Shown here one piece after another: positions 17,600 to 62,489 of a DNA stretch of 64,000 nt. The stretch's first letter is position 1. Each line of letters begins with the position of its first letter. Position numbers and translations under genes: made by a program. The notes beneath the pieces are model-generated. The model saw only the letters and a program-made list of their open reading frames with translations. It was not told where the DNA came from and ran no database searches. The stretch is taken from the NCBI RefSeq assembly GCF_018304765.1, contig NZ_CP072642.1, forward strand, positions 2,199,819 through 2,263,818, written 5' to 3'. Origin of the DNA: Chloracidobacterium sp. N (GTDB lineage: Bacteria > Acidobacteriota > Blastocatellia > Chloracidobacteriales > Chloracidobacteriaceae).

Positions 17600-19717
17600 T
17601 CAGCGCCGGTACTGGCGAAGCGTCCGCGCCAGCTTTTGGTACTCTTTGTTCTGTGGGTCGAGCTGAGTAGCGCGTTCGACGGCTTCGACGGCTTCGGCAT
17701 ATTTCTTTTCAAAGAAGGCGACGACGGCCAGTTGGGCATAGACCATCCCCCGCTCCCGGTCCGTCTTGATCGCGTTGTCCTGCATCAACTTTTCAAGCTG
17801 CTCACGCGCCAGGGCATACTGCTGACGATCAATGAACAACCCGGCCAGGACGAGCCGGGGTGAGACTTCCAGACTTTTCCGGGGCGCTGTGGAGAGCGCC
17901 CCCCGCGCCTCCATCTCGGCTTCATTTGACCGCGCCGCAAACTTGCGTTTGTTGGAAAAGTATTGTTCGGCATAGATCTGCGCCAGGTTGCCGTGGGCGT
18001 AGCAGGCATATTCCGGTTCGGGATCGAGTTCCAGACAACGCTTCTGATTGGCAATGGCCTCGTCCACTTTTCCCTGGCGGTATTGCAGCACACCCAGATT
18101 CTGGTAAGCCGGCCCGTAATCCGGGTGGGAGCGCAGTACGGCATAGACGATGTCTTCCGACTCCACGAAGCGTTCCTGCTCGAACAGGATTTCCGCCTTT
18201 TCGATGCGTAGTTCGGGTGAAGTTGGATTGGCCGTCAGCGCCTCATCCACCACGCGCAGCGCTGACTCGTAGCTGCTGACTTCCCGCAACGAACGTGACT
18301 GCTGCAGGATGGCCGCGACATCCTTCCCACCCCGGCGCGGCCCTGAAGTGTCATCCTTTTCTTCAACAGCCACCGGCCCTGAGCCGGTGCTTACGTAAAA
18401 GACATACAGACCGATGCCAACCACAAAGGCGAGAAGCAGGACTCCCACCCCGGCCACGAGTCCGCCAACAAGCCAGAAATTGGTTCCCGATGCACCAGAC
18501 GGCGCGGCGACGGGGGGACGGGCCGCGGGTGTGGGGAGCGTCGGGGACGGAGGGATGGCCGCCATCGGCGGCGGGGACGGGTTGGGTTGCACAACCGTCC
18601 CCGCCGAAACCGGCGACACACCGGGCATAACCGGCGGACGGAATCCCTCGTGGGGCGCCGGTCGCGGTGGCTGTGCCGTGACCGGCGCTGACGCGCCGGC
18701 CGTGGAAACCGTTGCCCCCTGATACTGGGTGGGTACACTGCCCGGCGGCGGAGAGGCCACCGGCCGGGTGCTCTCCATCACCGCCAGGGCTTTTTCGAGC
18801 TGTGCGGCAAAAGCCCCGGCCGAAGCCGGCCGGTCGGCCGGTCGCTGCGCCAACCCCTGGCGCACAACGGCTTCGATACCCGCCGGAACAGTCACCTGGG
18901 GCGCGGCGACGGACATCGGACGGGGCGGCTCCGACAGCCGAACGACCATCTGGGCCTGCATCGAATCACCGACAAAGGCCCGGGCGCCGGTCAGCATTTC
19001 GTAGGCGACGAGCGCGAGGGAGTACACATCCGAGCGGGCATCCAGCGGGCTGCCCATCACCTGCTCCGGCGACATGTAGTGCGGCGTCCCGACCACGAGG
19101 CCAACCTGCGTCATCGGCACGACGCTTTCCTGTCCGCCAACCGCCTTGGCAATCCCGAAGTCCACGACCTTCACCCGGTCGCCATCCATAACCATGATGT
19201 TGTCCGGTTTGAGGTCGCGGTGAATGACACCCAACTGATGGGCCACATCCAGCGCCCCGGCCACCTGGCGGATGATGTTCACCACCCGCGCCGGCGAAAA
19301 GGGACCCTCCCGTTGCAACAGCCTCGTCAGCGACTGTCCCTGGATGTATTCCATCGCCAGGAACGTCACCCCGGATTCCGTCTGTCCGAAATCGTGAATG
19401 ACGACGGCGTTCGGATGGTTGATGCTGGCCGCCAGCTTGGCCTCCCGCAGAAAACGGCGTCCGGCGTCGGCATCGGCCGCCTCCGGGCGCAGGACTTTCA
19501 CGGCGTCAATCCGCCCCAGGGTGCGGTGGCGCGCCGCATAGACGCTCCCCATGCCACCTTCGCCCAGTTTGGACAGGACTTCATACCGCCCGGCCAACAC
19601 CTGCCCAATGAAGGGATCATCCGGGGCAGCCGCCACGGAAACCAGAGTCGCGCCATCGTGTGGACAAAACTGGGCATTGTCCGGGTACTCGGTCCCACAG
19701 GTTGGGCAGCGTTTCAT
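17600..19717 (-). CDS. Ser/Thr protein kinase with zinc-ribbon and TPR domains
   Basis: A 705-residue Hanks-type kinase. It opens with a zinc-ribbon-like motif (CPTCG...FCPHDG; three Cys), followed by a complete kinase domain (about 44-315): GEGGMGSVY loop, Lys74, HRDLKPDN (166-173) and DFG (186-188). A Pro-rich linker, one membrane helix (VGGLVAGVGVLLLAFVVGIGLYVFYV) and a C-terminal block of TPR repeats (SPELRIEKAEILFEQERF onward) follow. So it is membrane-anchored with TPRs outside or on the far side. It is 97 bases downstream of pfkA and likely autophosphorylates; targets unknown. Confidence 0.95.
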   Translation of the reverse strand: MKRCPTCGTEYPDNAQFCPHDGATLVSVAAAPDDPFIGQVLAGRYEVLSKLGEGGMGSVYAARHRTLGRIDAVKVLRPEAADADAGRRFLREAKLAASINHPNAVVIHDFGQTESGVTFLAMEYIQGQSLTRLLQREGPFSPARVVNIIRQVAGALDVAHQLGVIHRDLKPDNIMVMDGDRVKVVDFGIAKAVGGQESVVPMTQVGLVVGTPHYMSPEQVMGSPLDARSDVYSLALVAYEMLTGARAFVGDSMQAQMVVRLSEPPRPMSVAAPQVTVPAGIEAVVRQGLAQRPADRPASAGAFAAQLEKALAVMESTRPVASPPPGSVPTQYQGATVSTAGASAPVTAQPPRPAPHEGFRPPVMPGVSPVSAGTVVQPNPSPPPMAAIPPSPTLPTPAARPPVAAPSGASGTNFWLVGGLVAGVGVLLLAFVVGIGLYVFYVSTGSGPVAVEEKDDTSGPRRGGKDVAAILQQSRSLREVSSYESALRVVDEALTANPTSPELRIEKAEILFEQERFVESEDIVYAVLRSHPDYGPAYQNLGVLQYRQGKVDEAIANQKRCLELDPEPEYACYAHGNLAQIYAEQYFSNKRKFAARSNEAEMEARGALSTAPRKSLEVSPRLVLAGLFIDRQQYALAREQLEKLMQDNAIKTDRERGMVYAQLAVVAFFEKKYAEAVEAVERATQLDPQNKEYQKLARTLRQYRR

Positions 19718-55845: not shown

Positions 55846-56787
55846 ATGACCTACCAAACGACGCTGCGCCGCGCAGTCTCCCTTCGCGGCATTGGACTTC
55901 ATACGGGACAGGAAGTTGAACTCACGCTGTGTCCGGCCCCGGCAGACACCGGTTACGTTTTCCGCCGCACGGATTTGAACGGTTTTGAAGTGGCGGCCGT
56001 CCCCCACCATGTCACGCACGTCAGCTATGCCACGACGTTGATGCGCGCCGGCGTGATGGTTTCAACCGTCGAGCATGTTCTTTCGGCGCTCTACGGCTGC
56101 GGCATAGACAACGCCATCCTCGATGTCACGAACTGCGAAGTGCCCATTCTGGACGGAAGCGCGCGCCACTTCGTCGAGGCCATTGCTGAAGCTGGAATCC
56201 TCACGCTGGAAAGTCCCCGGCAGGTCTTACAGGTCGAGCAGCGCATCGAAGTGGTCGAAGGCAACCGCCGGCTGGCCATCGAGCCGAGTGACCGTTTCTT
56301 CATCGAGAGTACGATTGACTTCGACCACCCGTGCATTGGGCGTCAAACCTTTGCCTGCGAAGTGACCCCGGTGACGTACCGGCAGGAGATTGCCCCGGCG
56401 CGCACCTTTGGCTTTCTCGCCGAGGCCGAGGCACTGCGCCGGCACGGGCTGGTGCGCGGGGCAACGCTCGAAAACGCCATCGTCCTCGATGCCGATTCCA
56501 TCCTCAGCCCGAAGCCGCTGCGATTCCCGGATGAATTTGCTCGTCACAAGGTGCTGGACATCATTGGTGACTTCGCCCTGCTGGGGCTGTCACTGCGGGG
56601 ACGCATCATCGCCGAACGCTCCGGGCACGGACTGCATTCGGCGCTCATCGGACGCCTGCTCCGGGAAGCCCGGGCCTGGACGGTCAACGGACTACCCAAC
56701 GGGAACGGGCGGCCCTCTGCAACTACAGCTTCGGCGGGGGCAGCGGCAGGGTCAGGAGCAACTGCTGCGCTTGCCGCTCCCGGATGA
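55846..56787 (+). CDS. lpxC: UDP-3-O-acyl-N-acetylglucosamine deacetylase LpxC
   Basis: Zinc deacetylase for the committed step of lipid A synthesis. Of 313 residues the core reads TTLRRAVSLRGIGLHTGQEVELTLCPAP, STVEHVLSALYGCGIDNAILDVTNCEVPILDGSAR (VEH zinc His), PARTFGFLAEAEAL, HKVLDIIGDFALLG (zinc His and Asp) and ERSGHGLHSALI (catalytic His). The last ~25 residues are an Ala/Gly-rich tail (ATTASAGAAAGSG) encoded where it overlaps the 3' end of the convergent PDZ gene. No ribosome site is visible at ATG 55846. Confidence 0.95.
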   Translation: MTYQTTLRRAVSLRGIGLHTGQEVELTLCPAPADTGYVFRRTDLNGFEVAAVPHHVTHVSYATTLMRAGVMVSTVEHVLSALYGCGIDNAILDVTNCEVPILDGSARHFVEAIAEAGILTLESPRQVLQVEQRIEVVEGNRRLAIEPSDRFFIESTIDFDHPCIGRQTFACEVTPVTYRQEIAPARTFGFLAEAEALRRHGLVRGATLENAIVLDADSILSPKPLRFPDEFARHKVLDIIGDFALLGLSLRGRIIAERSGHGLHSALIGRLLREARAWTVNGLPNGNGRPSATTASAGAAAGSGATAALAAPG

Positions 56788-58195
56788 TTTCCACTGTTAC
56801 CGGCGCTTCACCCTGCTGACTCAGGGACTGAAGTATCACTGCCGAGAGGTCGCGGCCGCGCCGGACCGGCTGGCCCTCCACCCGGACAATCACATCGCCC
56901 GAACGCAGCCCGGCCGCGGCGGCCGGGCTGTCGGCCAGAACATGCGTCACCAACAGACCGCCCGCCACACCAAAGAACTGTGCCAGTTGGGTGGTCAGGT
57001 CGGATGTCACCAGCCCGATGGCCAGGTGTTCGGCGGCCGGCGCTCTGGGCGTCGGCATATCTTCCGGCGAACCAAGTGTGACCTCGCACACCTGCTGCTG
57101 ACCGTCGCGCTCCACCAACAGCTTGAGGGTCTCTCCGGCGGCGTGACTGACAACGACTTCATTGAGTTCACGCCTGGACTCCAGCGGTTGGTCATTGGCG
57201 GTCAGGATGAGATCGCCGGGGGACAGACCGGCTTCCTCGGCCGGACTTCCCGGCACAACGGCCGTGACCACCACCCCTTGGGCGGCAGAAGCCCCGAAGC
57301 GCGCGCGTTCTTCGGCTGGAAACGTCGCCAGGGTTTTTCCTTCAATGCCGAGCCAGCCGTGGGGGACACTCTTCCCGGCGGAAATGATGCGGTGCATCAC
57401 CCGCTTGACATCTGTAACAGGCAACATGCGCAGGGACTTACCCTTCGGCTGCACAATCGCCACCAGCCGGTTCTGGCTGTCAACGGCGATGCCACAGTTG
57501 GCTTCAACCGGCAGGGCCAGCGATGGGTCCACGACCCAATCCGTCACCACCTCATCCCACACCAGGCGCGAAGCTGACTCCTCCGCCCGCCCGGGTGCCG
57601 CGTGCGCGGCCGGCGGCTGAAACATCGGCAGCATGATGCGTACCGTAAGGGGCTTGGTTGAGGCGCGCGTGTCCCGGACGGACAGTTTGCGCTCCGGCGC
57701 GGCCAGGGCATGCATGGTTGGCGGCGCAACCTGTAGCCCCGGAACCTGCAAGACACACAACCCCGTTGCCCCGTCCCGGCCAATGAACCGGGCCTGAAAC
57801 TCCTGGCGGTCCTGGGTCTGGACCACAATGGTTGGATTGCCGGGGCCGGGCGGTACGTTGACGAGTTGGGTCAGCACATGCCCTTTGTCATCCACCACGA
57901 TCCCCGTCGTGACATTCGTCAGCACGACATCCGAGGGCGCACATGTGCCATCAAGGGCGGCCGTGGAGACATCTTCGGCCGCGGCCGTCAGTTCCCCCAT
58001 CGTCACGTGATGGTTGACGATGACGAGCCAGCGCCCCACACCAGTGGTGTCTGATTTGCGGAGGTCGGGCCTGCGCGAAGCGGAGGCGGCATCACGCGGG
58101 CGCTCGGCAACCTGGGCGTATCCGATAGCACCCGACAGAAGCGCACCCGCCAAAACCTTCATGGTCAATGCGCGCGCGCTGTGCGACAGCATCAT
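56723..58195 (-). CDS. HtrA-like PDZ protein without the catalytic triad
   Basis: A 490-residue exported protein (signal segment MKVLAGALLSGAIGYAQ, from Met12) with an HtrA-like N-terminal barrel (about 85-275) and two PDZ domains (about 279-370 and 385-485: GWLGIEGKTLATF, VVTAVVPGSPAEEAGLSPGDLILTANDQPL; VTHVLADSPAAAAGLRSGDVIVRVEGQPV). Protease motifs are lost: TNxHV reads TQLVNVP (no His), the DxxTDLAVL Asp site reads DGATGLCVL, and GNSGGP reads ANCGIA (Cys in place of Ser234). It is probably a ligand-sensing or scaffold protein. Last gene of the sigma operon. Confidence 0.82.
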   Translation of the reverse strand: MMLSHSARALTMKVLAGALLSGAIGYAQVAERPRDAASASRRPDLRKSDTTGVGRWLVIVNHHVTMGELTAAAEDVSTAALDGTCAPSDVVLTNVTTGIVVDDKGHVLTQLVNVPPGPGNPTIVVQTQDRQEFQARFIGRDGATGLCVLQVPGLQVAPPTMHALAAPERKLSVRDTRASTKPLTVRIMLPMFQPPAAHAAPGRAEESASRLVWDEVVTDWVVDPSLALPVEANCGIAVDSQNRLVAIVQPKGKSLRMLPVTDVKRVMHRIISAGKSVPHGWLGIEGKTLATFPAEERARFGASAAQGVVVTAVVPGSPAEEAGLSPGDLILTANDQPLESRRELNEVVVSHAAGETLKLLVERDGQQQVCEVTLGSPEDMPTPRAPAAEHLAIGLVTSDLTTQLAQFFGVAGGLLVTHVLADSPAAAAGLRSGDVIVRVEGQPVRRGRDLSAVILQSLSQQGEAPVTVEIIRERQAQQLLLTLPLPPPKL

Positions 58196-58205
58196 GGGTG
58201 TCACG

Positions 58206-58880
58206 TTAGAATATGGAGTCGTCAGATGACTCTCCCTCTGCGGCTGGCCGGCGGTCCACGATCGGCTGCGCGCCGTACACCACGGGGGGCAGGCGCAGGA
58301 CCTGCTCACCAGAGCGTCCCCGCCACAAGACGACGACGCCATTGGCTTCCCGGGCCGGCAACGATGCCTGGCGTACGGCAGCCGGTGTCATGCGTCCCGG
58401 ACGGGCAACGGCCACCGCGGCCCGGGCCGGGACCGGCCGCGAACCCGGAAGGTTTCCACTGAGCTGACTCCTCAGTGCCGTCACCAGCGCCTGCTCCGGC
58501 AGGGTGGGCAGCACCAGTGCTGCCGCCACCGTGGGCGCGGGGTGGAGCACCATCTGCATGGACGAACGGACGGCGAGGGCACTGGTGACAACCACCACCA
58601 GCGCCACGGCAGCCAGTACGGGCGTGGGCACCCAGGCTAGGAAAGGTTCCCGAAAACGATGGGCATCCCGCCCCAACCGCAGGCGAAGTTCTGCATCGAA
58701 GGTGGCGGGCGGCAGGATGCGCGGCTGCCCGGACAGCAGGACCCGCAGAGACTGCATTTGTGCCGCATACGCCCGGCACTCCGCACAGGCCATCAGATGG
58801 GCGGCTGACTCTGGCGGCAAGGCTTCCGGGTCATACTCGACGGCTTCCAGTTGACGACGAATCGTGGAGCAACTCACCAT
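58206..58880 (-). CDS. Zinc-binding anti-sigma factor (RseA/ZAS-type), transmembrane
   Basis: A 224-residue membrane anti-sigma factor. The N-terminal domain has HLMACAECRAYAAQM, an intact HxxxCxxC ZAS motif, preceded by LPPESAA and helical text that should wrap the sigma factor. One membrane helix follows (VPTPVLAAVALVVVVTSALAV), then a Pro/Ala/Arg-rich periplasmic tail (about 115-224). The ATG at 58880 has AGGAG eight bases upstream. It sits between the sigma gene (43-bp gap) and the HtrA-like gene, so it should hold the sigma factor inactive until a signal. Confidence 0.9.
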   Translation of the reverse strand: MVSCSTIRRQLEAVEYDPEALPPESAAHLMACAECRAYAAQMQSLRVLLSGQPRILPPATFDAELRLRLGRDAHRFREPFLAWVPTPVLAAVALVVVVTSALAVRSSMQMVLHPAPTVAAALVLPTLPEQALVTALRSQLSGNLPGSRPVPARAAVAVARPGRMTPAAVRQASLPAREANGVVVLWRGRSGEQVLRLPPVVYGAQPIVDRRPAAEGESSDDSIF

Positions 58881-58922
58881 AACGATCACTCCTGCATACT
58901 GCCCGGCAACAAACCGGCCACG

Positions 58923-59567
58923 TCACAGGTAAGCGCGCAGCTTGTCGCGCAACAATCCACGGGCGCGGTTGATGCGCGATTTCACGGTTCCTTCCGAGAT
59001 GTTCAGGATGCCGGCAATTTCGTCATAGCTCAGCCCTTCGACATCCCGGAGCACCAGCGCCGCCCGGTATTTCTCCGGCAGCGTCTGAATGGCGCGCCCC
59101 ACGGCTGCCCGGCGCTCACGCTCAATCAGGTCGGCATCCTGAAGGGGGCGCTCGTCAGGAATATCCAGTGGGGTTTCTTCCTCATCCTCGTGACGTGCCC
59201 AAGGGGTGAACAGCGAAACCAGTTTGCGGCGGCGACGCTGCCGTAGCTCGCTAATCGCCAGGTTCGTCGCAATCCGGTAGATGTAGGTCGAAAAATGAAA
59301 CGTCGCCCGATAGCGCGCCACATTGGCATAGACGCGCAGGAAGGTTTCCTGCGCCAGTTCCACGGCGCGGTCGTAATCATCGAGCATGCGAAAGATGAAG
59401 TTCGTAATGGGCGTGCGGTAGCGCCGGACAATCTCCTGAAAGGCCTGTTCATCACCAGCCTGGACGGCGGCAATGAGTTCGTGGTCGCTGGCCGCATCCA
59501 CCGTCACGACACGGTGTATCTCACCAGGTACGGGGTATGTCAGGGCGCTACTCATCAGATGCGACAT
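58923..59567 (-). CDS. ECF sigma factor, RpoE-like
   Basis: A 214-residue ECF sigma factor. Region 2 reads DEQAFQEIVRRYRTPITNFIFRMLDDYDRAVELAQETFLRVYANVARYRATFHFSTYIYRIATNLAISELRQRRRR, and region 4 reads LPEKYRAALVLRDVEGLSYDEIAGILNISEGTVKSRINRARGLLRDKL, both close to RpoE/SigW types. It is followed by its membrane anti-sigma factor and the HtrA-like protein, an RpoE-RseA-like order. A sigmaE-like promoter lies ~65 bp upstream, suggesting self-control. Start ATG 59567 (TTG 59570 is possible). Confidence 0.92.
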   Translation of the reverse strand: MSHLMSSALTYPVPGEIHRVVTVDAASDHELIAAVQAGDEQAFQEIVRRYRTPITNFIFRMLDDYDRAVELAQETFLRVYANVARYRATFHFSTYIYRIATNLAISELRQRRRRKLVSLFTPWARHEDEEETPLDIPDERPLQDADLIERERRAAVGRAIQTLPEKYRAALVLRDVEGLSYDEIAGILNISEGTVKSRINRARGLLRDKLRAYL

Positions 59568-59633
59568 CAACGCTCATTCCTCGCTCACAAAGTCAACATT
59601 CCACACAACCCGCAGTGACAGAGTTCGTTGGGG

Positions 59634-59661
59634 TTACACGCGCCAGACAGTCCGAAGTTCC
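59634..59661 (-). promoter_or_regulatory. sigmaE-like promoter upstream of the ECF gene
   Basis: On the minus strand GGAACTT (59655-59661) is followed after 16 bp by TGTAA (59634-59638); the E. coli sigmaE consensus is GGAACTT-N16-TCAAA. The transcription start would lie near 59626, about 60 bp from the ECF start codon, which fits autoregulation. Confidence 0.55.
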
Positions 59662-59814
59662 ACGATCTCAAAACGTTCTGCCGAATCGTCGGCGGGCCGT
59701 CGCCATGGCGCGCGTGGATGCCGGCGCGTTTCATGGCTATAGCGTGTTCACACGGCGCGCACAAGTGTTACATTGGCAGACAGGTCTCCCCCGCGCCATC
59801 CTGAATCCGTCCGT

Positions 59815-61095
59815 ATGTCGCTTCATCCGATGACTGAATTTCCACGTCTCCGTCCGCTCCAGCTTTTTGCCGACGAAACTGCCCAGGTCATCATTGCCTA
59901 TGATCCTCAAGGCTTCACGGAACCCATCGGTCTTGACATCCGCCTGGCGCCGCTGCTCCTGCTGTGCGATGGACAGCATTCCCTGTCCGAACTGCCGGCG
60001 CTGCTTCTGCACCGTTTCGGACAGCGGTGGTCGGCCGATGACCTGGCGGACATCATCCACCGCCTCGACGAGTGGTTGCTTTTGGACAGCCCACGTTTTG
60101 CCACCCTGGCAGCGCGTCAGATGGTGGAGTTCCGGGCGGCAACGGTACGGCCAGCAGCGCATGCTGGTGTCAGCTACCCGGATGAGCCGGAGGCGCTCCG
60201 CCAGCGCCTCGACGCCATTCTGGCGCACACGCCGGACTGTCCGCTTGGGGCCGCCCGGCTTGAGCAGCTTGTGGGCGTTGTGGCGCCGCACATTGATTTG
60301 CGGGTTGGGGAGCGGGCTTATGCTCCGGCCTACCGGCTCATCGAACGGCTTGCCGCCACCCTGCCGGACGGCGAACCGGTGACGTTCGTCGTGTTGGGCA
60401 CGTCGCACTATGGCGGCGACGGGCTGTTCGTCGCCTCGCGCAAGGACTATGCCACGCCCTTGGGCGCGCTGCCCTGCGACCGTGAATTCCTTGACCGGCT
60501 GGAAATCCGCCTGGGCGCTTCCATCAGTGCCGACGACACCCCTCATCGGCAGGAACATGCCATTGAGTTTCAGGCGGTGTTCCTGCGGCACATCTTTGAC
60601 CGGCATCTGGAGGCTGGGCGGCCGGTACGCATGGTGCCCATCCTGTGCACTTCCCTGCACGAACTGTATGCCGCAGACGAGGCCTGCCGCGAGCGCACGC
60701 AGGCGGAGTACCGGGCATTTATCGAGGCGTTACAGGCGACGCTGGCTGAACAGACCCACCGGACGCTGTTGCTGGTTGGCGGCGATCTGGCGCATGTGGG
60801 CCCCAAGTTTGGCGACCGCTTCGATGCCCAGACCAGGGCGGCGGAGCTGGAGCGCGCCGACACGGAACTGCTCGACTACGTTGCCACCGGCGACAGCGCA
60901 GCGGTGCTTGACCACATTGCCCGCGACGAAGATGTGCGCCGGGTCTGCGGTTTTCCGCCGCTGATGGCTTATCTGGATGCGCTGGCGGCGTTTGGCCCCA
61001 CGGAAGGGCAGGTTCTGCACTATGAACAGTGGCAGGAACGCCCAACCCGTTCGGCCGTCACCTACGGCGCAGCCGCCGCATGGCGCAGCGTTTGA
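59815..61095 (+). CDS. MEMO-family (AmmeMemoRadiSam B) protein with N-terminal extension
   Basis: A 426-residue protein. Residues about 30-115 form a PqqD-like winged-helix segment (IGLDIRLAPLLLLCDGQHSLSELPALLLHRFG). The rest is MEMO1: GVVAPHIDLRVGERAYAPAY, VVLGTSHYGGDGLFVASRKDYATPLGALPCDREF, HRQEHAIEFQAVFLRHIF, LLVGGDLAHVGPKFGDRF and GFPPLMAYLDALAAF, with the His-rich metal site (APH, TSH, EHAIE, LAH) of the family. The AmmeMemoRadiSam A and radical-SAM partners are not here. No ribosome site; ATG 59830 is also possible. Confidence 0.82.
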   Translation: MSLHPMTEFPRLRPLQLFADETAQVIIAYDPQGFTEPIGLDIRLAPLLLLCDGQHSLSELPALLLHRFGQRWSADDLADIIHRLDEWLLLDSPRFATLAARQMVEFRAATVRPAAHAGVSYPDEPEALRQRLDAILAHTPDCPLGAARLEQLVGVVAPHIDLRVGERAYAPAYRLIERLAATLPDGEPVTFVVLGTSHYGGDGLFVASRKDYATPLGALPCDREFLDRLEIRLGASISADDTPHRQEHAIEFQAVFLRHIFDRHLEAGRPVRMVPILCTSLHELYAADEACRERTQAEYRAFIEALQATLAEQTHRTLLLVGGDLAHVGPKFGDRFDAQTRAAELERADTELLDYVATGDSAAVLDHIARDEDVRRVCGFPPLMAYLDALAAFGPTEGQVLHYEQWQERPTRSAVTYGAAAAWRSV

Positions 61096-61855: not shown

Positions 61856-62199
61856 TCACTGCAAGGTCTCTCTGGCCAACCGCTCCAGTACCGGAAGCAA
61901 GGGCGGAATATCCTGAGAAACTGTTTTCCAGATAATCTGCAAGTCAACACCGTGATATTCGTGAATGAGTTTATCGCGCATCCCTGCGATTTCCTTCCAG
62001 GGAACTTCGGGATACCTGCTCCGGGTATCTTCCGGTATCTTCTTTGCCGCCTCGCCCATGACCTCCAGCGAACGAATCACCGCATTGGCGGTCTTCCGGT
62101 CGTGGATGAATTCTTCGAGCCCATCCCCTCCACAAACTCCAAAGCCTCTTCGGCCGCGTTCCACATGTCCTCCAGATAGTCCTTCAAGGTTCGGCTCAT
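61856..62199 (-). pseudogene. hepT: HepT toxin (HEPN ribonuclease), frameshifted
   Basis: HepT is a HEPN-fold RNase toxin, neutralised by MntA. The first frame from ATG 62199 gives RTLKDYLEDMWNAAEEALEFVEGM; near 62117-62124 a one-base loss moves the text to another frame, LEEFIHDRKTANAVIRSLEVMGEAAKKIPED, then MRDKLIHEYHGVDL with the RX4-HXY catalytic motif intact. So the toxin is split unless the shift is a sequencing error. Its ATG overlaps the MntA stop by four bases. Confidence 0.8.
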
Positions 62200-62489
62200 A
62201 TTGGCAACGCCTCTTGGAGGATGTACTTGCCGATGTGGGGTTTGAGGGCCTGGCGCGTCACCAGTTCCACCCGCACGCCCAAGAGATCGCTTAGGTACTG
62301 CTCCAGTTGAAGGAACCGAAAGAAGCCGGGGGGATCGTCAAACTCCACCAGGATGTCCAGGTCACTTTCTGCCGTCGCCTCTCCCCGCACATGGGAGCCG
62401 AAGATGGCAAGCTCCCGAACCCCGTAGCTTTGCGCCAGCTCTTCTTTGTGCTGCCGGAGAATCTGTATAAGCCGCTCAAGGTTTTCCAT
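62196..62489 (-). CDS. mntA: MntA-family antitoxin nucleotidyltransferase
   Basis: A 97-residue minimal nucleotidyltransferase: IFGSHVRGEATAESDLDILVEF contains the GSx10DxD catalytic motif (Gly31-Ser32, Asp43, Asp45). MntA AMPylates its partner HepT, silencing it. The C-terminal part (FFRFLQLEQYLSDLLGVRVELVTRQALKPHI) is typical of the pair. It is four bases overlapped with the frameshifted hepT. The frame from 62590 translates upstream remnant text; the ATG 62489 is the start. Confidence 0.9.
   Translation of the reverse strand: MENLERLIQILRQHKEELAQSYGVRELAIFGSHVRGEATAESDLDILVEFDDPPGFFRFLQLEQYLSDLLGVRVELVTRQALKPHIGKYILQEALPI

Follow-up and report, generated by a model that had tools for sequence, protein, structure and literature searches.

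A conserved operon-linked HtrA-like pseudoprotease in Blastocatellia and its suggested docking on the C-terminus of a zinc-binding anti-sigma factor

A 64,000-nucleotide stretch of the genome of Chloracidobacterium sp. N (G000:C1:2199819-2263818; genome of 3.7 Mb on two contigs), referred to as the window, contains an operon for an extracytoplasmic function (ECF) sigma factor, a zinc-binding anti-sigma (ZAS) membrane protein and an exported HtrA-like protein with two PDZ domains. As judged from its sequence, the HtrA-like protein is a pseudoprotease, which has kept the protease fold by descent and has lost catalytic residues. Comparison across several phyla suggests that it docks with its first PDZ domain (PDZ1) on the C-terminus of the anti-sigma factor, and it probably serves there as a non-catalytic, RseB-like sensor and gatekeeper in a self-amplifying envelope-stress switch.

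All three open reading frames (ORFs) of the operon are open and lie on the minus strand, to which all coordinates of operon features given here refer; the one-directional arrangement stated in an earlier annotation of this DNA (the original prediction) is thereby confirmed. The ECF sigma factor (58923..59567) has Sigma70_r2 and r4_2 domains and exceeds the cut-off of TIGR02937; an in-frame TTG is found upstream of its ORF at 59570. The membrane anti-sigma factor (58206..58880, with an ATG start codon at 58880) is encoded between the sigma and HtrA-like genes and has a hydrophobic segment and the zinc-binding motif HLMACAEC (58776..58799). It has no Pfam match and only weakly matches an NCBIfam anti-sigma model (24.2 against a cut-off of 50). 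The assignment to the ZAS type is based on the sigma region 2 and 4 domains and on the adjoining anti-sigma factor with its HxxxCxxC motif. The HtrA-like protein of 490 amino acids (56723..58195) starts with a signal peptide (58112..58195), recognized by eye from the translation as a hydrophobic stretch followed by YAQ.

In the HtrA-like protein, a trypsin-like barrel is followed by two PDZ stretches, which is the domain order of HtrA proteins. The degenerate barrel (57338..58039, the region used as search query) matches Pfam Trypsin_2 below the cut-off (22.1 vs 27.6 bits), and PDZ is matched above it; PDZ1 with its carboxylate loop GWLGI is located at 57071..57364 and PDZ2 at 56744..57022, both with approximate limits. 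The cut-offs of NCBIfam TIGR02037 for HtrA/DegP (148.6 vs 416.2 bits) and of the DegS equivalog TIGR02038 (100 vs 422.95 bits) are not reached. An AlphaFold model built from 26 orthologues (mean predicted local distance difference test score, pLDDT, 75.8) is good in the first half of the barrel and most of the PDZ region (block means mostly 78-94), and poor in the remaining half of the barrel with the Ser region (block means 40-87, mostly <75). The model has the HtrA fold and matches structures of DegQ, DegP, and DegS (Foldseek E down to 1.4e-24); structure alignment (VIA) gives a Z of 20.8 with DegQ and of about 18 with DegS. In alignment with canonical DegP, the catalytic His corresponds to Val112 (57860..57862), the Asp to Gly145 (57761..57763), and the Ser region to N233-C234-G235, where Cys234 (57494..57496) adjoins the Ser position.

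The loss of the catalytic residues is shared by all orthologues in the class. A search of 162 Blastocatellia genomes from 53 genera with the barrel profile (A1) gave one match each in 77 genomes from 38 genera; the set of 77 loci consists of the window and 76 others, after four of 80 fetched loci (L048, L051, L054, and L060) had been left out for having no barrel match. These 77 loci were aligned together with the canonical DegP controls L048, L054, and L060, in which all three triad residues align; the alignment is least sure near the Ser. The catalytic His is present in none of the 77 orthologues, the Asp is replaced by Gly in 76 and by Trp in one, and the Ser position is variable. This bears out the claim that the His and Asp sites are lost. 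The Cys reported for the Ser site is indeed found beside the Ser position in the window, but it is lineage-specific and had been given undue weight: five of the six loci of the genus have it, and L034 has Phe instead (TSFG). A conserved alternative His-Asp-Cys triad was looked for in the alignments of orthologues and is ruled out by them. Since the His is lost in all 77 orthologues and also in the aligned operon-linked relatives from other classes and phyla, the protein is, by sequence, not a DegS-type protease, as had been proposed.

The gene order is equally conserved. Of the 77 barrel loci, 72 have a sigma factor gene upstream in the same orientation, and the five loci without one are all at contig ends. 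An anti-sigma factor with the zinc motif is encoded in 73, the remaining four lacking one by this motif, which was itself the selection criterion. With this recurrence of the gene order across the class, a chance arrangement of the operon can be ruled out, and the linkage on which the original prediction depended holds in relatives. Together with the loss of His and Asp in the 77 loci, it follows that the loss of the triad is old and stable and that the protein has been retained at this locus.

The residue proposed to be bound by PDZ1 is the last one of the anti-sigma factor, which ends with DSIF (58209..58220) in the window. All 73 linked anti-sigma factors end with Phe, Trp, Tyr, Leu, or Ile (W 34, F 27, L 8, I 2, Y 2), and in four further operons, in which the contig ends within the HtrA-like gene (L242-L245), the anti-sigma factors end with W, W, W, and F. 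As controls, 30 Pfam zf-HC2 loci were used, none of which is at such an operon by coordinates; 22 were readable and eight were not, and four of these 22 unlinked zinc anti-sigma factors end with one of the five residues. Among the long ORFs of the operon loci, the proportion is 33% with the anti-sigma factors included (n=463) and about 21% without the 73. The hydrophobic preference is confined to the last residue, since the same five residues occupy position -1 in 18% and positions -2 to -14 in <=15% of the tails. A FastTree phylogeny of 70 sigma factors implies seven changes of the last residue, always within F/W/Y/L/I, compared to 19 to 38 changes at positions -1 to -5. Further upstream in the periplasmic part, which comprises about 107-175 residues (class median 138), the window protein has a conserved YGAQ box 23 residues before the C-terminus (58266..58277); a loose GAQ-like pattern, counted without a chance control, occurs within the last 45 residues of 72 of the 73 linked anti-sigma factors, mostly 18-26 residues from the end. 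On the side of the pseudoprotease, the x-hydrophobic-G-hydrophobic carboxylate loop of PDZ1 is kept in all 77 orthologues (69 by pattern and eight, with PLLGV/I, by eye). Two Omp85-type proteins were found in the genome of Chloracidobacterium sp. N, and both end with Phe.

Natural variants of the operon within the class connect the tail with PDZ1. In two Pyrinomonas genomes, P. methylaliphatogenes K22 (L202/L271) and a second one (L240/L270), the barrel is followed by a single PDZ domain, which resembles PDZ2 (63 and 70 bits, vs 21 and 33 for PDZ1), and the anti-sigma factors have no hydrophobic tail but end with LTPQH and PRTEQ. Where other Pyrinomonadaceae that lack the pseudoprotease were read, their orthologous sigma factor gene is followed by one membrane anti-sigma gene with a PDZ-like periplasmic end. 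Pfam PDZ_2 is reported in seven of seven of these fused proteins at E 0.1 or better (in L204 under the curated cut-off), and a model of the fused PDZ (pLDDT 84.6) has the PDZ-bearing proteases CtpB and DegQ as first matches (E about 8e-4). Strong matches to the fused form (E <1e-22) were obtained in 60 of the 162 genomes, none of which belongs to the 77 with a barrel match, and only four of the 30 fused proteins that were read end with F/W/Y/L/I. In G360 (L241), a fused zinc anti-sigma-PDZ gene is directly followed by an ATP-grasp-like gene (by eye). In Pyrinomonas, this gene comes after the HtrA-like gene, so that L241 is the equivalent locus without its HtrA gene.

A sigma factor tree of 119 rows, from which the low-score row L119 and four identical rows had been removed, indicates the direction of this change. 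The split form is paraphyletic and the 39 fused rows are a clade nested inside it (100/99), so that the split form is regarded as ancestral. The one-PDZ pair is sister to the fused clade with modest support (82/53), and L241 is placed outside on a long branch. With regard to the donor of the fused PDZ, the PDZ2 profile of the pseudoprotease gives a higher score than its PDZ1 profile in 29 of 30 cases. When 16 genomes were searched with a profile of the fused PDZ, the pseudoprotease was the best match in four (G411, G342, G023, and G354; coordinates by eye), and generic PDZ proteins matched equally well or better in the others. On a Delongbacteria contig (L312, 4573-5307), a zinc anti-sigma factor also has a fused PDZ domain, apparently independently of the fusions in Pyrinomonadaceae; it ends with QDQK, and its PDZ leans towards PDZ1 (41.7 vs 35.5 bits).

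Outside of the class, 13 Acidobacteriota loci with weaker matches to the profile (L078-L087 and L089-L091) were read, and eight further profile matches were left unread. Eleven of the 13 have no His at the aligned site, ruling out that these matches are ordinary HtrA proteins, and nine of the eleven have a sigma factor gene in the stretch, so that His-less relatives indeed occur beside sigma factor genes in other Acidobacteriota. The other two, L085 and L086, are canonical HtrA loci with no sigma factor gene in the stretch. In seven of the loci (group B: L079, L080, L082, L084, L087, L089, and L091), the HtrA proteins have the Ser but neither the His nor the Asp of the triad, and a short protein without zinc motif is encoded between the sigma and HtrA genes, at the place expected for the anti-sigma factor. 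This protein has a VYILEQVSE-like box and ends with Tyr or Phe in seven of seven cases.

For other phyla, the best 80 sigma factor relatives were taken, of which L281-L337 were read, giving an anti-sigma ORF in 50 loci. If an HtrA gene follows within about 2.5 kb, the anti-sigma factor ends with Leu or Phe in 14 of 14 operons; if none does, only four of 36 end with F/W/Y/L/I, all of them with Tyr (Fisher p 3e-9, uncorrected for relatedness). The 14 HtrA-linked operons belong to 11 Poribacteria and three Zixibacteria, and the catalytic His is found in none of them. In Poribacteria, the His position is Phe (10) or Leu (1), Asp is kept in 11 and Ser in nine. Among all loci read, L331 is masked over the Ser site. 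Thus, loss of the His is common to every operon-linked member that was aligned, whereas loss of Asp and Ser is not, as Poribacteria and group B keep some of these residues. The Poribacteria proteins have a single PDZ, which is nearer to PDZ1 in 11 of 11, and the tail is kept. In all of these loci (L283, L287-L289, L295, L302, L307, L308, L316, L327, and L332), the HtrA-like gene adjoins that of an anti-sigma factor ending with GGL. Across all of these forms, the tail appears largely to track PDZ1: it is present with PDZ1 plus PDZ2 and with PDZ1 alone, and it is absent with PDZ2 alone.

The operon is preceded by a predicted promoter GGAAC-N16-CGTG (59637..59661; GGAAC at 59661-59657 and CGTG at 59640-59637). 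Among the 51 orthologous operons with readable upstream sequence, a GGAAC-N16/17-CGT motif precedes 50 (N16 in 45, N17 in five), compared to a mean of 0.77 in 200 shuffles. With a matrix built without it, the window promoter scores 24.5, the class median being 27.5. This conserved promoter upstream of the sigma operon predicts that the sigma factor activates its own transcription.

These features can be combined into a model, in which the docking of PDZ1 on the tail is suggested by sequence comparison, and for which we infer the signal, the sign of regulation, the autoactivation and the protease that makes the cut. The zinc anti-sigma factor would hold the ECF sigma factor at the membrane and send its tail into the periplasm. 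The exported, non-catalytic HtrA relative encoded by the third gene would bind the hydrophobic C-terminal residue of the anti-sigma factor with PDZ1, perhaps aided by the GAQ box, and would sit on the anti-sigma factor as RseB does on RseA. The docked complex would keep the anti-sigma factor from a separate site-1 protease. The signal would most likely consist of C-termini that unfolded envelope proteins expose, and would be read by PDZ2, by competition for PDZ1, or by both. Once the complex is lost or rearranged, the tail would be open to the site-1 protease, with an RseP-type site-2 protease acting next, and the freed sigma factor would transcribe its own operon from GGAAC-N16-CGTG. The genome encodes an M50 site-2 protease with two PDZ-like repeats recognized by eye (L254), and the third of the genome that was read contains three HtrA-like proteins with the His and GNSGG (L371, L391, and L394), which could make the first cut.

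A wider proposal is put forward tentatively. According to it, the His-less HtrA proteins would be an ancient multi-phylum family of non-catalytic envelope-stress receptors, in which the anti-sigma tail mimics the C-terminus of an outer membrane protein (OMP) in PDZ1 and is displaced by unfolded envelope proteins, resulting in proteolysis; in some lineages, the receptor would have been reduced to a fused PDZ. The interpretation given in the original prediction, with its tie between HtrA-like protein and anti-sigma factor, is overall partly supported. This tie is borne out by the conserved linkage, the conserved C-terminal tail, and the natural fusions, while the C-terminus of the anti-sigma factor, the PDZ fusions, the conserved promoter, and the old multi-phylum family had been absent from it.

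Several observations weigh against docking of PDZ1 on the tail and a role in envelope stress. According to a passage in PMC8545111, the PDZ domains of DegS and AlgW bind C-termini that end with Phe and have an aromatic residue two positions earlier. Such a residue is found at position -2 in none of the 73 tails, a difference from the Y-x-F and W-V-F peptides that activate DegS and AlgW. The joint loss of tail and PDZ1 is based on one to three events, as Pyrinomonas and the main fused lineages may represent a single one. In a further group of Acidobacteriota (group C: L078, L081, and L090), the anti-sigma factor beside the triad-less HtrA protein ends with NVSH in three of three cases, a conserved tail that is not hydrophobic and therefore speaks against a simple form of the tail rule; in L081, the sigma factor gene is outside of the stretch and an additional small ORF precedes the HtrA gene. 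In Zixibacteria, L310 has a hydrophobic tail and a single PDZ leaning towards PDZ2 (65.6 vs 61.2 bits); the PDZ of L330 leans towards PDZ1 (73.0 vs 69.8 bits), and as the two lean in opposite directions by small margins, they do not discriminate.

The role in envelope stress stays a prediction, as a matrix scan of ~1.19 Mb, about a third of the genome, plus the window brought up no convincing further regulon gene. Apart from the operon's own site, none scored >18 bits. One GGAAC-N16-CGT site with 17.5 bits (L356, around base 17853, plus strand) is within the range of resampled sequence; the gene following it presumably encodes a Bax-inhibitor-type membrane protein. The regulon may be small.

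The main rival of the shielding function described above is that the pseudoprotease is an adaptor, which, bound to the tail, recruits an active HtrA or C-terminal protease upon binding unfolded proteins and promotes cleavage of the anti-sigma factor. The anatomy expected for an adaptor is the same as for docking, HtrA proteins are known to oligomerize, and the HtrA-like proteins with an active motif (His and GNSGG) encoded in the genome would be available for recruitment. A precedent is MamO, for which a passage in PMC4794232 describes that it promotes cleavage by MamE although it is not itself a protease. However, the sequence does not tell whether regulation is positive or negative, and the adaptor function is weakened by the fused lineage, in which a PDZ without barrel suffices, which speaks against contact between barrels being needed. 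An adaptor function is regarded as rather unlikely.

A conserved hydrophobic tail could, as judged from sequence, be read equally by a protease with PDZ domains, which is a further point against docking of the pseudoprotease. In this case, an active protease of the Prc/Ctp or DegS type would recognize the tail as the signal for site-1 cleavage, and the pseudoprotease would act elsewhere. C-terminal proteases read nonpolar tails, and Foldseek matches the fused PDZ best to that of CtpB. However, the tail accompanies the HtrA gene in other phyla (14/14 vs 4/36) and is absent or rare without PDZ1 or the gene, while a general protease signal would be expected to persist, making this explanation improbable. 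It is slightly more improbable still that the protein is an ordinary member of the regulon, namely a periplasmic chaperone under control of the sigma factor without contact to the anti-sigma factor. HtrA proteins do act as chaperones, HtrA genes are known from sigma operons, MucD and DegP being encoded beside theirs, and two PDZ domains are suited for substrate binding; the conserved tail, its correlation with HtrA and PDZ1, and the anti-sigma-PDZ fusions would be left unexplained, though. That the protein is catalytically active and uses an unusual Cys or Ser as nucleophile is very unlikely. The Cys beside the Ser position in five of six loci of the window genus and the Ser in group B and in nine of 11 Poribacteria might be invoked for it; against it, no aligned operon-linked member has a His at the base position, the Asp is lost in 77 of 77 proteins of the class, neither Cys nor Ser is conserved, and alignment and model are weakest around the Ser site. 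Both the chaperone and the enzyme explain less than docking of the pseudoprotease on the anti-sigma tail.

The proposed docking has parallels in known systems. The RpoE-RseA-RseB-DegS-RseP system of E. coli likewise comprises an ECF sigma factor, a single-pass anti-sigma factor, an HtrA-fold PDZ sensor, and an RseP-type protease, and it has a partner protein on the anti-sigma factor, as is proposed here. The HtrA sensor of E. coli is a membrane-bound protease with catalytic activity, and the fold of RseB is another one, which binds lipids. In contrast, the HtrA fold described here is inactive by sequence and encoded within the operon. In mycobacteria, the genes for SigE, RseA, and HtrA are found in a row, with an HtrA that is catalytic and membrane-anchored. 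The general understanding is that HtrA proteins sense envelope stress by catalysis that a PDZ domain switches on. Here, the sensing fold has been kept and catalysis discarded, and the anti-sigma factor has a PDZ-ligand-like tail of its own. By comparison, the PDZ of DegS reads foreign OMP tails according to a passage in PMC8103513, whereas in the window the anti-sigma factor itself bears a tail like a PDZ ligand.

In the AlgU-MucA-MucB-AlgW system of Pseudomonas, as described in part of PMC8545111, the hydrophobic C-terminus (WVF) of MucE is read by an HtrA PDZ and controls cleavage of the anti-sigma factor, and MucB shields MucA. In contrast to the operon described here, AlgW is catalytic and the signal peptide is located on a separate protein. 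Protection by a bound partner is also described in PMC11637429 for Pseudomonas, where the signalling domain of FoxA binds the C-terminal domain of the anti-sigma factor FoxR and protects it from proteolysis; this partner is a domain of a TonB-dependent transducer and not an HtrA protein. MamO from magnetotactic bacteria belongs to the HtrA/Deg branch and combines a degenerate triad with a new non-catalytic role, but it binds metal, carries a transporter domain, and has no link to a sigma factor in the portion of the text available (PMC4794232).

In the literature covered, consisting of titles, abstract starts, and passages, neither an operon-linked HtrA pseudoprotease nor an anti-sigma-PDZ fusion is described. 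A term search of the main text of a paper on the classification of class I anti-sigma factors found neither PDZ nor Acidobacteria (PMC7406223). The ECF sigma factor, the zinc anti-sigma factor, and the HtrA fold are known parts, and a non-catalytic HtrA protein docked via PDZ on the C-terminus of an anti-sigma factor was not found described in the papers searched. If correct, the docking would represent a non-proteolytic route by which an HtrA protein controls a sigma factor, and it would explain the role of at least one group of HtrA pseudoproteases. The split, one-PDZ, and fused forms would then be a natural series for testing. For bacteria with little-studied stress responses, including P. 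methylaliphatogenes K22, the operon provides a promoter motif and a testable contact between two proteins.

Next to the operon, an lpxC-like gene (by eye; 55846-56787, plus strand) converges on the HtrA-like gene with a tail-to-tail overlap of 65 bases, and a gene for a MEMO1-like protein (by eye; 59773-61095, plus strand) is divergent from the sigma operon. Further along the window, two adjacent small genes on the minus strand (61856-62164 and 62196-62489) resemble HEPN and minimal nucleotidyltransferase genes and are presumably so by their motifs, possibly forming a toxin-antitoxin pair.

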